From Galaxea fascicularis (taxonomy: Eukaryota; Cnidaria; Anthozoa; Scleractinia; Euphylliidae): a DNA stretch of 64,000 nt. Each line of letters begins with the position of its first letter. The first letter of the stretch is position 1. A model generated the notes under the pieces. It did not search any database, had not been told where the DNA came from, and saw nothing but the letters and a program-made list of their open reading frames with translations. Positions 10,468 to 20,629 of this stretch are shown here, in pieces. The stretch covers positions 27,482,372 to 27,546,371 of the forward strand of contig OX419337.1 of assembly GCA_948470475.1 (NCBI GenBank). Direction: 5' to 3'. The position numbers and the translations under genes are program-made.

Positions 10468-10829
10468 CAAGACAAGTTGATTTACAGCAGAAGTCTCCTC
10501 ATATATTAAACTTATAATCATTATCTAGAGTTTGCACAGTTTTTCTTCACTTGAGTTCTAATATGAATAATTATTACAGTGTACTGTACATGTATGTTCA
10601 GTCAAGTCACATGGACCTCAGACAGGACATACCTTCCTTAGATGTATGCTGTTCCTAGTGTGGCAGATTTATGGAGAAGACTGTTACTGACAGTCAATAT
10701 CCAGATGGCCCAGGTAGTTTTCAGTTTCACTTGGGTTGAGCCCAGTGCTGGTAACTACTTGGTGTAGGCACCCATATAGTGGTCCGGGCCATATACTGGT
10801 CCGGGCGGTTACTTATACATCCATACCCA

Positions 10830-13800
10830 TACTTAGCCCTACTTAGCCGTACTTTCACATCCTTAGCCGTACTTACACATCCTTACACATCCTTAGCGGT
10901 ACTTAGACATCCTTAGCCGTACTTAGCCATCCTTAGCCGTACTTACACATCCTTAGCCGTACTTACACATCCTTAGCCGTACTTAGACATCCTTACACAT
11001 CCTCAGCGGTACTTAGCCATCCTTAGCCGTACTTAGCCATCCTTAGCCATACTTAGCCATCCTTAGCCGTACTTAGACATCCTTAGCGGTACTTAGCCAT
11101 CCTTAGCCGTACTTAGCAGTACTTACACATCCTTACACATCCTTAGCCGTACTTACACATCCTTACACATCCTTAGCGGTACTTAGCCATCCTCAGCCGT
11201 ACTTAGCCATCCTTAGCCGTACTTAGACATCCTTAGCCGTACTTACACATCCTTACACATCCTTAGCGGTAGTTAGCCATCCTTAGCCGTACTTAGCCAT
11301 CCTTAGCCGTACTTAGACATCCTTAGCCGTACTTACACATCCTTACACATCCTTAGCGGTACTTAGCCATCCTTAGCCGTACTTAGACATCCTTAGCCGT
11401 ACTTACACATCGTTACACATCCTTAGCGGTACTTAGCCATCCTTAGCCGTACTTAGACATCCTTAGCCGTACTTACACATCCTTACACATCCTTAGCCGT
11501 ACTTACACATCCAAAGCTGTAATTAGCCATCCTTAGCCGTACTTAGCCATCCTTAGCCGTACTTACACATCCTTACACATCCTTAGCGGTACTTAGCCAT
11601 CCTTAGCCGTACTTAGACATCCTTAGCGGTACTTACACATCCTTACACATCCTTAGCGGTACTTAGCCATCCTTAGCCGTACTTAGCCATCCTTAGCCGT
11701 ACTTACACATCCTTACACATCCTTAGCCGTACTTACACATCCTTAGCTGTAATTAGCCATCCTTAGCCGTACTTAGCCATCCTTAGCCGTACTTAGACAT
11801 CCTTAGCCGTACTTAGACATCCTTACACATCCTCAGCGGTACTTAGCCATCCTTAGCCGTACTTAGCCATCCTTAGCCGTACTTAGACATCCTTAGCGGT
11901 ACTTAGCCATCCTTAGCCGTACTTAGACATCCTTAGCGGTACTTAGCCATCCTTAGCCGTACTTAGCCATCCTTAGCCGTACTTAGGCATCCTTAGCCGT
12001 ACTTACACATCCTTAGCCGTACTTACACTTCCTTACACATCCTTAGCCGTACTCAGCCATCCTTAGCTGTACTTAGCCATCCTTAGCCGTACTTAGCCAT
12101 CCTTAGCCGTACTTACACATCCTTACACATCCTTAGCCGTACTTACACATCCTTAGCTGTAATTAGCCATCCTTAGCCGTACTTACACATCCTTAGCCGT
12201 ACTTACACATCCTTAGCCGTACTTACACATCCTTACACATCCTCAGCGGTACTTAGCCATCCTTAGCCGTACTTAGCCATCCTTAGCCATACTTAGCCAT
12301 CCTTAGCCGTACTTAGACATCCTTAGCGGTACTTAGCCATCCTTAGCCGTACTTAGCAGTACTTACACATCCTTACACATCCTTAGCCGTACTTACACAT
12401 CCTTACACATCCTTAGCGGTACTTAGCCATCCTCAGCCGTACTTAGCCATCCTTAGCCGTACTTAGACATCCTTAGCCGTACTTACACATCCTTACACAT
12501 CCTTAGCGGTAGTTAGCCATCCTTAGCCGTACTTAGCCATCCTTAGCCGTACTTAGACATCCTTAGCCGTACTTACACATCCTTACACATCCTTAGCGGT
12601 AGTTAGCCATCCTTAGCCGTACTTAGCCATCCTTAGCCGTACTTAGCCATCTTTAGCCGTACTTAGCCATCCTTAGCCGTACTTAGCCATCCTTAGCGGT
12701 ACTTAGCCATCCTTAGCCGTACTTAGACATCCTTAGCCGTACTTACACATCCTTACACATCCTTAGCGGTAGTTAGCCATCCTTAGCCGTACTTAGCCAT
12801 CCTTAGCCGTACTTAGACATCCTTAGCCGTACTTACACATCCTTACACATCCTTAGCGGTAGTTAGCCATCCTTAGCCGTACTTAGCCATCCTTAGCCGT
12901 ACTTAGCCATCTTTAGCCGTACTTAGCCATCCTTAGCCGTACTTAGCCATCCTTAGCCGTACTTACACATCCTTACACATCCTTAGCGGTACTTAGCCAT
13001 CCTTAGCCGTACTTAGACATCCTTAGCCGTACTTACACATCGTTACACATCCTTGCGGTACTTAGCCATCCTTAGCCGTACTTAGACATCCTTAGCCGTA
13101 CTTACACATCCTTACACATCCTTAGCCGTACTTACACATCCTTAGTTGTAATTAGCCATCCTTAGCCGTACTTAGCCATCCTTAGCCGTACTTACACATC
13201 CTTACACATCCTTAGCGGTACTTAGCCATCCTTAGCCGTACTTAGACATCCTTAGCGGTACTTACACATCCTTACACATCCTTAGCGGTACTTAGCCATC
13301 CTTAGCCGTACTTAGCCATCCTTAGCCGTACTTACACATCCTTACACATCCTTAGCCGTACTTACACATCCTTAGCTGTAATTAGCCATCCTTAGCCGTA
13401 CTTAGCCATCCTTAGCCGTACTTAGACATCCTTAGCCGTACTTAGACATCCTTACACATCCTCAGCGGTACTTAGCCATCCTTAGCCGTACTTAGCCATC
13501 CTTAGCCGTACTTAGACATCCTTAGCGGTACTTAGCCATCCTTAGCCGTACTTAGACATCCTTAGCGGTACTTAGCCATCCTTAGCCGTACTTAGCCATC
13601 CTTAGCCGTACTTAGGCATCCTTAGCCGTACTTACACATCCTTAGCCGTACTTACACTTCCTTACACATCCTTAGCCGTACTTAGCCATCCTTAGCTGTA
13701 CTTAGCCATCCTTAGCCGTACTTACACATCCTTACACATCCTTAGCGGTACTTAGCCATCCTTAGCCGTACTTAGACATCCTTAGCGGTACTTACACATC

Positions 13801-14966
13801 CTTACACATCCTTAGCGGTACTTAGCCATCCTTAGCCGTACTTAGCCATCCTTAGCCGTACTTAGACATCCTTAGCGGTACTTAGCCATCCTTAGCCATA
13901 CTTAAGCCATCCTTAGCCGTACTTACACATCCTTACACATCCTTAGCGGTACTTAGCCATCCTTAGCCGTACTTACACATCCTTAGCCGTACTTACACAT
14001 CCTTACACATCCTTAGCGGTACTTAGCCATCCTTAGCCGTACTTAGACATCCTTAGCCGTACCTACACATCCTTACACATCCTTAGCGGTACTTAGCCAT
14101 CCTTAGCCGTACTTAGCCATCCTTAGCGGTACTTAGCCATCCTTAGCCGTACTTAGACATCCTTAGCCGTACTTACACATCCTTACACATCCTTAGCGGT
14201 ACTTAGCCATCCTTAGCCGTACTTAGCCATCCTTAGCCGTACTTAGACATCCTTAGCTGTACTTAAGCATCTTTAGCCGTACTTAGACATCCTTAGCCGT
14301 ACTTAGCCATCCTTAGTGGTACTTAGACATCCTTAGCCGTACTTAGACATCCTTAGCTGTCCATAGACATCCTTAGCTGTACTTAGACATCCTTAGCTGT
14401 ACTTAAGCGTCCTTAGCCGTACTTAGCCATCCTTAGCCGTACTTAGCCATCCTTAGCCGTACTTAGACATCCTTACCTGTACTTAGACATCCTTAGCCGT
14501 ACTTAGACATCCTTAGCTGTACTTAGACATCCTTAGCTGTACTTAGCCATCCTTAGCCGTACTTAGACATCCTTAGCTGTACTTAGACATCCTTAGCCGT
14601 ACTTACACATCCTTACACATCCTTAGCGGTACTTAGCCATTCTTAGCCGTACTTAGACATCCTTAGCCGTACTTACACATCCTTACACATCCTTAGCGGT
14701 ACTTAGCCATCCTTAGCCGTACTTAGACATCCTTAGCCGTACTTAGACATCCTTAGCCGTACTTAGCCATCCTTAGCGGTACTTAGACATCCTTAGCCGT
14801 ACTTAGACATCCTTGGCTGTACATAGACATCCTTAGCTGTACTTAGACATCCTTAGCTGTACTTAAGCATCCTTAGCCGTACTTAGCCATCCTTAGCCGT
14901 ACTTAGATATCCTTAGCTGTACTTAAGCATCCTTAGCCGTACTTAGCCATCCTTAGCCGTACTTAG
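10830..14966. repeat. Left tandem array of the giant foldback element (10-bp register, 20-bp unit)
   Basis: About 410 consecutive 10-mers alternate between ACTTAGCCGT-like and CCTTAGCCAT-like forms, with variants such as CCTTACACAT, CCTTAGCGGT and ACTTAGACAT. The register is nearly strict: one base is lost near 13054 and one gained near 13905. Higher-order copying is visible: rare variants such as CGTTACACAT (11411, 13040) and ACTTAGGCAT (11981, 13610) recur about 1,630 bp apart, and ACTTAGCAGT (11111, 12351) recurs 1,240 bp apart. TAG in the unit blocks long open frames. Confidence 0.95.
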
Positions 14967-20300: not shown

Positions 20301-20525
20301 TCTAAGTACAGCTAAGGATGTCTAAGTACCGCTAAGGATGTGTAAGGATGTGTAAGTACGGTTAAGGATGTCTAAGTACGGCTAAGGATGTCTAAGTACA
20401 GCTAAGGATGGCTAAGTACGGCTAAGGATGGCTAAGTAATGCTAAGGATGTGTAAGGATGTGTAAGTACGGCTAAGGATGTGTAAGTACGGCTAAGTAGG
20501 GCTAAGTATGGGTATGGATGTGTAA
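17372..20525. repeat. Right tandem array of the giant foldback element, inverted relative to the left
   Basis: About 315 10-mers of GGCTAAGGATGTCTAAGTAC-type units form the reverse complement of the left array. Near the outer end the pattern GGATGTGTAAGGATGTGTAA mirrors the CCTTACACATCCTTACACAT pattern of the left arm. The inner part is more diverged, with variants such as GATGCCTAAGTACAGCTACG. The array is about 1 kb shorter than the left one. Confidence 0.95.
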
Positions 20526-20629
20526 GTAACCGCCCGGACCAGTATATGGCCCGGACCACTATATGGGTGCCTACACCAAGTAGTTACCCCAGTGCTCCTG
20601 TTACATCTGGTGTGACATCTATTACTATT

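Follow-up and report, generated by a model that had tools for sequence, protein, structure and literature searches.

The window analysed here is a 64,000-nucleotide stretch of the genome of the stony coral Galaxea fascicularis (NCBI GenBank assembly GCA_948470475.1, contig OX419337.1, forward-strand positions 27,482,372 to 27,546,371; G000:C3:27482372-27546371 in our numbering), and coordinates below refer to it unless another locus is named. It contains a foldback unit of 9.8 kb (positions 10750-20588), which consists of two short tips in inverted orientation, two long arms made of tandem 10-bp units, likewise inverted, and a middle segment, and which is flanked by an 8-bp target duplication.

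Structure of the unit at positions 10750-20588

The tip GGTAACTACTTGG occurs a single time in the window, at position 10750, and its complement also occurs once, ending at position 20588; the boundaries proposed in an earlier, sequence-only reading of this DNA are thus exact. The left tip (10750-10809, plus strand), as delimited by Tandem Repeats Finder (TRF) and tip comparison, spans the terminal ~60 bp and contains two 17-bp repeats (10772-10806), and the right tip (20529-20588, minus strand) is the left tip inverted. The first 66 bases of the two tips are identical, and 147 of the first 151 positions agree. Comparison of the flanks revealed the sequence CCAGTGCT on the left (10742-10749) and again on the right (20589-20596). 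A direct duplication of 9 bp, CCCAGTGCT, had been described previously; the duplication itself stands, but its length is 8 bp, since the ninth base, C, already belongs to the right tip, of which it is the final base, and since the family to which the unit belongs uses 8 bp.

As a control for chance, 40 simulated first-order Markov windows and the real window were scanned for inverted tip pairs accompanied by an 8-10-bp duplication. With 12-bp tips, five matches were obtained in the real window and none in the 40 simulated ones. These five matches correspond to three elements, the unit at 10750-20588 and the smaller elements 2 and 3 described below, two of the matches being sub-hits within element 3. 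With an 8-bp seed, there were 19 matches over the 40 simulated windows and 7 in the real one.

The arms were mapped by TRF (20-bp period) and by unit counting. The left arm (10810-14966, plus strand) contains 415 units and the right arm (17376-20528, minus strand) contains 315 like units in inverted orientation, in agreement with the lengths of about 4.2 and 3.2 kb estimated earlier. The unit had also been called almost wholly built of inverted arrays; the arrays are there, but a middle of 2.4 kb is free of them. The decamer types of the left arm include TTAGCCGTAC, TTAGCCATCC, TTACACATCC, TTAGACATCC and others, with TTAGCCGTAC mostly alternating with TTAGCCATCC, TTAGACATCC or TTACACATCC. Bases 60-105 of the tip consist of decamers in degenerate form (scores as high came from 0 of 1000 shuffles), and the first 59 bases have no similarity to the 10-bp units. 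That these terminal 59 bp gave rise to the decamers was considered and is unsupported (872 of 1000 shuffles reach the score).

The inverted arrangement of the arms, together with the existence of foldback artefacts in long reads (PMC12870357), raises the question of whether the unit is an assembly chimera or an inverted-repeat read artefact. Against this, the two arms are 92.3% identical over the aligned columns of a gapped alignment and differ by ~1 kb in length, and they are bounded by the 8-bp duplication.

Decamer types are partly zoned within the arms. In the right arm, the 21 TTACACATCC units are all confined to the outer 1.26 kb (P 6e-10); the left arm has 78 of them, and 74 fall outside its inner zone (P 6e-4). 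Conversely, the left arm has 11 TTAGCTGTAC units, 9 of them inside the inner zone (P 3e-6), whereas in the right arm TTAGCTGTAC is scattered over the whole arm. Position-by-position order in the right arm did not follow that of the left arm significantly (29 windows, rho 0.22, p 0.25); the 18 inner right-arm windows nevertheless all match the left arm at its inner end. Self-comparison also showed that the left arm has been enlarged through the duplication of stretches of 581, 468 and 271 bp within it, each with at least 99% identity between copies. The 581-bp sequence is found at 11515-12095 and 13144-13724 (99.7%) and the 468-bp sequence at 10919-11386 and 12159-12626 (99.4%), all on the plus strand.

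Folding energies were calculated with DNA parameters for the two outer 600-base pieces of the arms. Alone, the pieces yielded -19.9 and -31.2 kcal/mol; together they yielded -580 kcal/mol, with 533 of the 539 pairs running between the arms. Two unrelated pieces of the window, used as a control, yielded -79 and -50 kcal/mol alone and -136 kcal/mol together. The outer arm pieces thus fold weakly on themselves and pair strongly with each other, in line with the kilobase hairpin that had been suggested for single strands of this DNA.

A family of copies and its middle segment

The coral's own genome (416.6 Mb, 170 contigs) was searched with the 105-bp tip. At least 54 matches were found, this count being a lower bound as 40 of the 96 candidates were scored. 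Among the 54, 37 begin at base 1, 5 are tips without the first 13-39 bases, and 12 span the array-like bases 61-105 alone, all of them beside tip-bearing loci. The matches form 17 inverted tip pairs, including that of the window; the other 16 lie on eight other contigs. An assembly chimera, which the sequence-only reading had named as one possible refutation, is excluded by this recurrence, and for the family as a whole we consider an artefact of assembly or of foldback reads highly improbable, with array lengths still open to correction. Patterns for the tip and the decamers had no matches in viral contigs, and the decamer pattern had none in a separate collection of genome contigs.

Sequences were taken for the 16 other tip pairs and for 7 further tip loci, with some neighbouring stretches. 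Both ends could be read in 15 of the 17 tip pairs, and the 8-bp target duplication is exact in nine of these and has one mismatch in three more. Duplications of 9 or 10 bp were a better fit in no copy of the family. Further copies with intact tips and duplications had been put forward as the evidence that would support an inserted unit, and these copies supply it. They also bear on the view that the arrays are a satellite block with an incidental inversion rather than a transposon. The arms are indeed satellite-like, and the 12 tip matches that are array stretches only would fit such a block, but fixed tips with 8-bp duplications at unrelated sites, as well as a conserved middle, argue for one inserted unit, as the sequence-only reading had held, and exclude the satellite explanation for practical purposes.

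Arm length differs widely between the copies, the shortest arms measuring 0.4 kb and the longest at least 6.1 kb; the nine copies in which the duplication is exact have total lengths of 4.3-10.8 kb, and most of their arms exceed 1 kb. The longest arms of the family (5.6 and at least 6 kb) belong to C4c (L031 and L038, C4:10694994 onwards), whose middle of ~4 kb carries extra sequence and whose right end reads N. In C4a (L014 and L015, C4:35409495-35420312), the right tip is present twice head-to-tail, the outer copy being 10 bases short, and the 8-bp duplication CACTCAAG is exact despite this doubling. One tip each of C6c and C1 is without its outermost bases. A lone tip (L034, C1:36621074) matches 86 of the 105 bases at 99% and has no array behind it, and is possibly a truncated copy; its 425-amino-acid frame had no Pfam match.

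The middle of the window copy (14967-17375), which the sequence-only reading had overlooked, is a conserved part of the family. It is full in seven copies, with 97.6-98.5% identity in 21 pairwise comparisons, the copy in C11b carrying a short insert. A partial middle is present in C6b, C1, C11d, C11c and C4b and in four of the seven further loci, and C5, C6d and C8b (133 bp) have none. At L023 and L027 the arms adjoin each other without a middle and form imperfect palindromes, matched at 80% and 92% over the central 100 bases. Judged by eye, an insert in C6b has 672-bp direct repeats and retroelement-like frames, and one in C11c has a reverse-transcriptase-like frame.

The longest stop-to-stop frame in the middle of the window copy encodes 103 amino acids, and this length is not exceeded across 12 copies. 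No Pfam family reached its cut-off in the 10 scanned frames (out of 14 frames of at least 45 amino acids) of the window copy's middle or in 7 scanned frames of the longer middle of C4c, no transposase was found in the parts read of other copies, and there was no match in Rfam. One frame of the middle (16684-16992, minus strand) resembles proteins predicted elsewhere in the assembled contigs, with 7 of 8 candidates matching in the protein comparison, and because of this resemblance this part of the middle is probably a piece of a dispersed repeat. A 284-amino-acid frame beside the middle of another copy (L029:5552-6403, minus strand) begins like the dispersed-repeat frame and has a reverse-transcriptase match below the cut-off (E 2e-5, 24.8 of the required 29.6 bits); the repeat may, therefore, be a retroelement piece.

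Tandem-repeat inverted arms with a distinct tip, and target duplications at more than one site as the trace of transposition, are both marks of the foldback class, and the family has both. Since the family combines GG...CC tips, 8-bp duplications, many copies, a conserved middle without a recognisable gene and arms of varying length, we interpret it, with a probability of roughly 0.85, as a non-autonomous foldback-type cut-and-paste DNA transposon, this figure leaving aside the steps of the mechanism proposed below. Several points weigh against this interpretation. Insertion is read from the duplications at occupied sites, and 3 of the 15 readable copies deviate: C8 has a 6-bp match only, C8b has two mismatches and C11d has no duplication. 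That the family lacks a transposase is judged from the lengths of frames in 12 copies and from Pfam scans of some frames, and a 10-kb interior stretch of C13 and shorter parts of five further loci read N.

Neighbouring elements and the candidate transposase

Two smaller elements lie in the left part of the window. Element 2 (3230-5370) is tandem-armed as well, with tips GGCTTATTGTACTTTGCG, 21-bp units (11 and 5.3 copies) and the 9-bp duplication CAGTAAACA; its 155-amino-acid frame matched no Pfam family at E<=0.01 and no homologue at E<=0.001. Element 3 (3526-4359) is located inside element 2 and has tips GGACGTATACAAAACATGGACC, 25-26-bp units and the 9-bp duplication GGATATTCT. A frame with an RPAP3_C domain (9820-10467, plus strand) ends 274 bp before the left target duplication of the foldback unit, and a short hairpin element resembling a miniature inverted-repeat transposable element (MITE; 20630-20722), with 25-bp perfect inverted ends and the 7-bp duplication TACTATT, starts 33 bp past the right one. 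Patterns for the element-3 tip and the MITE-like element had no matches in viral contigs. Elsewhere in the window there are an inverted repeat of 81 nt (6685-6866; 93% complementary, spacer of 20 nt), a perfect inverted repeat of 30 nt with a spacer of 11 nt, whose symmetry extends into the flanks (9471-9541), and a 190-bp tandem duplication at 98% (43706-44084). Among the 120 matches listed out of 7974, the best named matches of a protein of the window were from Porites and Desmophyllum, followed by Actinia and Nematostella, all of them anthozoans, which supports the cnidarian host implied by the sequence-only reading.

As no enzyme gene was found in the element, the family was probably moved by an enzyme encoded elsewhere. 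Merlin transposons are marked by 5'-GG ends and 8- or 9-bp duplications (PMC8101967). Terminal 5'-GG is found at both ends of all three tandem-armed elements of the window, with duplications of 8 bp for the unit at 10750-20588 and 9 bp for each of the other two. Beyond the GG, the three tips are not similar to one another (741, 972 and 1000 of 1000 shuffles reach the scores). The Merlin transposase domain (DDE_Tnp_IS1595) has 127 matches in the coral genome, and 16 of these sit in frames that run uninterrupted for at least 290 amino acids. From these features, a Merlin transposase appears to be the most likely mover, a view that we favour with some reserve, the genome search for transposases having been made with the Merlin domain. 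Among the 127 Merlin loci, three were examined over 2.2-2.7 kb each, a span that may leave their ends outside, and none has the family tip; no autonomous partner sharing the family tips was found. These observations count against the Merlin step, and so does the range of 8-11 bp given for the duplications of Mutator-like elements (MULEs; PMC6446971), into which the 8 bp of the family falls.

The same family could, accordingly, have been moved by a MULE transposase of the MULE, Phantom or Rehavkus-like kind. Tm1 of Meloidogyne, with composite tandem-repeat ends and 9-bp duplications, has a Phantom-type transposase (PMC3169594), and Rehavkus-1_TC, 9.5 kb long, has tandem arrays in its inverted termini (PMC10218199). 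The exact 8-bp duplications of nine of the 15 readable copies and the GG ends fit Merlin at least equally, and Merlin transposases exist in this genome, and we regard a MULE mover as possible but rather unlikely. The 7-bp duplication of Galileo is not seen in the family, 14 copies showing 3-6 mismatches at this length.

In the mechanism that we propose, a transposase made elsewhere, most likely Merlin, would cut at the GG tips, the arms would lengthen through unequal exchange or slippage, and arms in the single-stranded state could pair with each other. Such lengthening and pairing would explain both the copies without a middle and the copy with homogenised arms.

Change in the arms, their possible role and comparison with known systems

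Likeness of arms was measured as shared 30-mers, with copies oriented by their middle. Between the seven full copies, same-side arms share 0.40 and opposite-side arms 0.31; in 16 oriented copies the difference between same and opposite sides is small (0.022) and was reached in 7 of 2000 permutations. Same-side arms are thus more alike between copies, and an arm has therefore been inherited together with the side on which it lies. It has to be set against this that, over all oriented copies, the two arms of one copy average 0.354 (n=14) compared to 0.27 and 0.28 for same-side arms between copies. The highest value is that of C4c, where 82% of 30-mers are common to both arms. When 18 copies were ranked by their left arm, the copy's own right arm came first in 5 and second in 3, and was outdone by 8 to 37 other arms in the remaining 10. 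Occasional exchange between the arms of a single element is therefore likely. The lengths of the two arms are uncorrelated in the seven full copies (rho -0.11, n=7).

The register of the arrays was compared to the middle, which serves as an internal yardstick for arm change. In 39 arms, 96 of 9362 unit steps deviate from 10 bp and there are 2560 substitution-type differences, and the middles of six copies differ from that of the window copy by 33 indels and 274 substitutions. Per substitution, arms thus have three to four times fewer off-register indels than the middle: the odds ratio for middle versus arm indels is 3.2 when every arm is counted, and rises to 4.0 when the comparison is restricted to the seven full copies minus the degenerate right arm of C11b (P <1e-6 for both). 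We treat this depletion as a hint of selected spacing, and as a lead to follow. Weighing on the other side, the register counts are non-independent events, arm edges contribute false steps, and shifted units could be lost through unequal exchange with no selection acting.

What the arms do, if anything, can be approached from these data. The in-phase decamers may be repeated sites at which a protein binds, either the transposase or one of the host, a suggestion we offer tentatively. The main alternative is that the arms are functionless and that the family is a short-tipped transposon whose subterminal repeats grew by slippage and unequal exchange. The large and recent duplications of the left arm, the uncorrelated arm lengths, and the likeness of own arms together with arm growth fit this alternative, and the large TIR-220 arrays of Tetris have been proposed to have arisen in a comparable way (PMC4079207). 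On the other hand, the nine exact-duplication copies mostly have arms longer than 1 kb, though growth may postdate insertion, and the arms hold to their 10-bp register three to four times more closely than change in the middle would predict, non-independent as the counts are. We give functionless arms a chance that falls just short of even. A more specific form of the binding-site suggestion would make the arms a phase-locked docking track, in which hundreds of putative sites spaced by 10 bp, their register under selection, would recruit Merlin transposase or a host protein and so let a gene-less 10-kb element outcompete shorter ones. This we consider improbable; if true, it would give foldback arms a testable function, and the family would be, to our knowledge, the first known Merlin-driven foldback family.

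In Galileo of Drosophila, the tandem repeats bind the element's transposase and provide extra binding sites (PMC3688188, PMC3573991), and the same role for the tandem repeats of Foldback and Phantom was called untested in a 2013 paper (PMC3688188). The coral family, with about two dozen loci that share the same tips, many of them with the same middle, and with arms of 0.4-6 kb, is a resource for studying arm function. It also illustrates how satellite-like arrays can travel with a transposon and so become dispersed in the genome of a coral.

Units of Foldback (FB) are 10, 20 or 31 bp long. FB and Galileo resemble the coral family in their long tandem-repeat inverted arms, in arm-rich non-autonomous copies and in length variation by repeat number (PMC3688188, PMC3573991). 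Galileo, a member of the P superfamily, differs in having arms of up to 1.26 kb, ~210-bp repeats and 7-bp duplications (PMC3688188, PMC3573991), compared to arms of up to 6.1 kb, 10-bp units, 8-bp duplications and GG tips in the coral. Tetris of Drosophila virilis is likewise a non-autonomous foldback element with tandem-repeat arms, a variable middle and 8-10-bp duplications, and its repeats also occur as satellite-like arrays, up to 66 copies long, which were born inside Tetris; unlike in the coral family, the repeats are 220 bp long, the terminal inverted repeats (TIRs) reach 1,735 bp and three copies are complete (PMC4079207). Rehavkus-1_TC of Tribolium, a DNA transposon of 9.5 kb, is alike in that its inverted termini contain tandem arrays (PMC10218199), whereas Rehavkus elements have 9-bp duplications and their hosts are given as Arthropoda and Annelida (PMC6446971). 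Tm1 shares tips followed by a variable number of short tandem units and the presence of autonomous and non-autonomous members, but its units are 13-15 bp, its duplications 9 bp, its 7-bp ends asymmetric and its copies 1.1-2.6 kb, and its transposase is that of a Phantom MULE (PMC3169594). Merlin elements share the 5'-GG ends, the 8- or 9-bp duplications and, in several families, internal tandem repeats; their TIRs are stated to be 24-462 bp and no foldback Merlin is met in the excerpted text (PMC8101967), and for its part the coral family has no transposase that we found. No cnidarian foldback element was found in the open-licence literature searched, Repbase and Dfam being outside that search.

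The longest arm given for an intact copy in the literature compared is the 1,735 bp of Tetris, whose 220-bp repeats are, however, also known from the arrays of up to 66 copies mentioned above (PMC4079207). Judged by published descriptions, the coral family is set apart by arms of 3-6 kb with target duplications, by 10-bp units and by a conserved middle. Its class of mechanism is ordinary; the length of the arms and their in-phase arrays are unusual.

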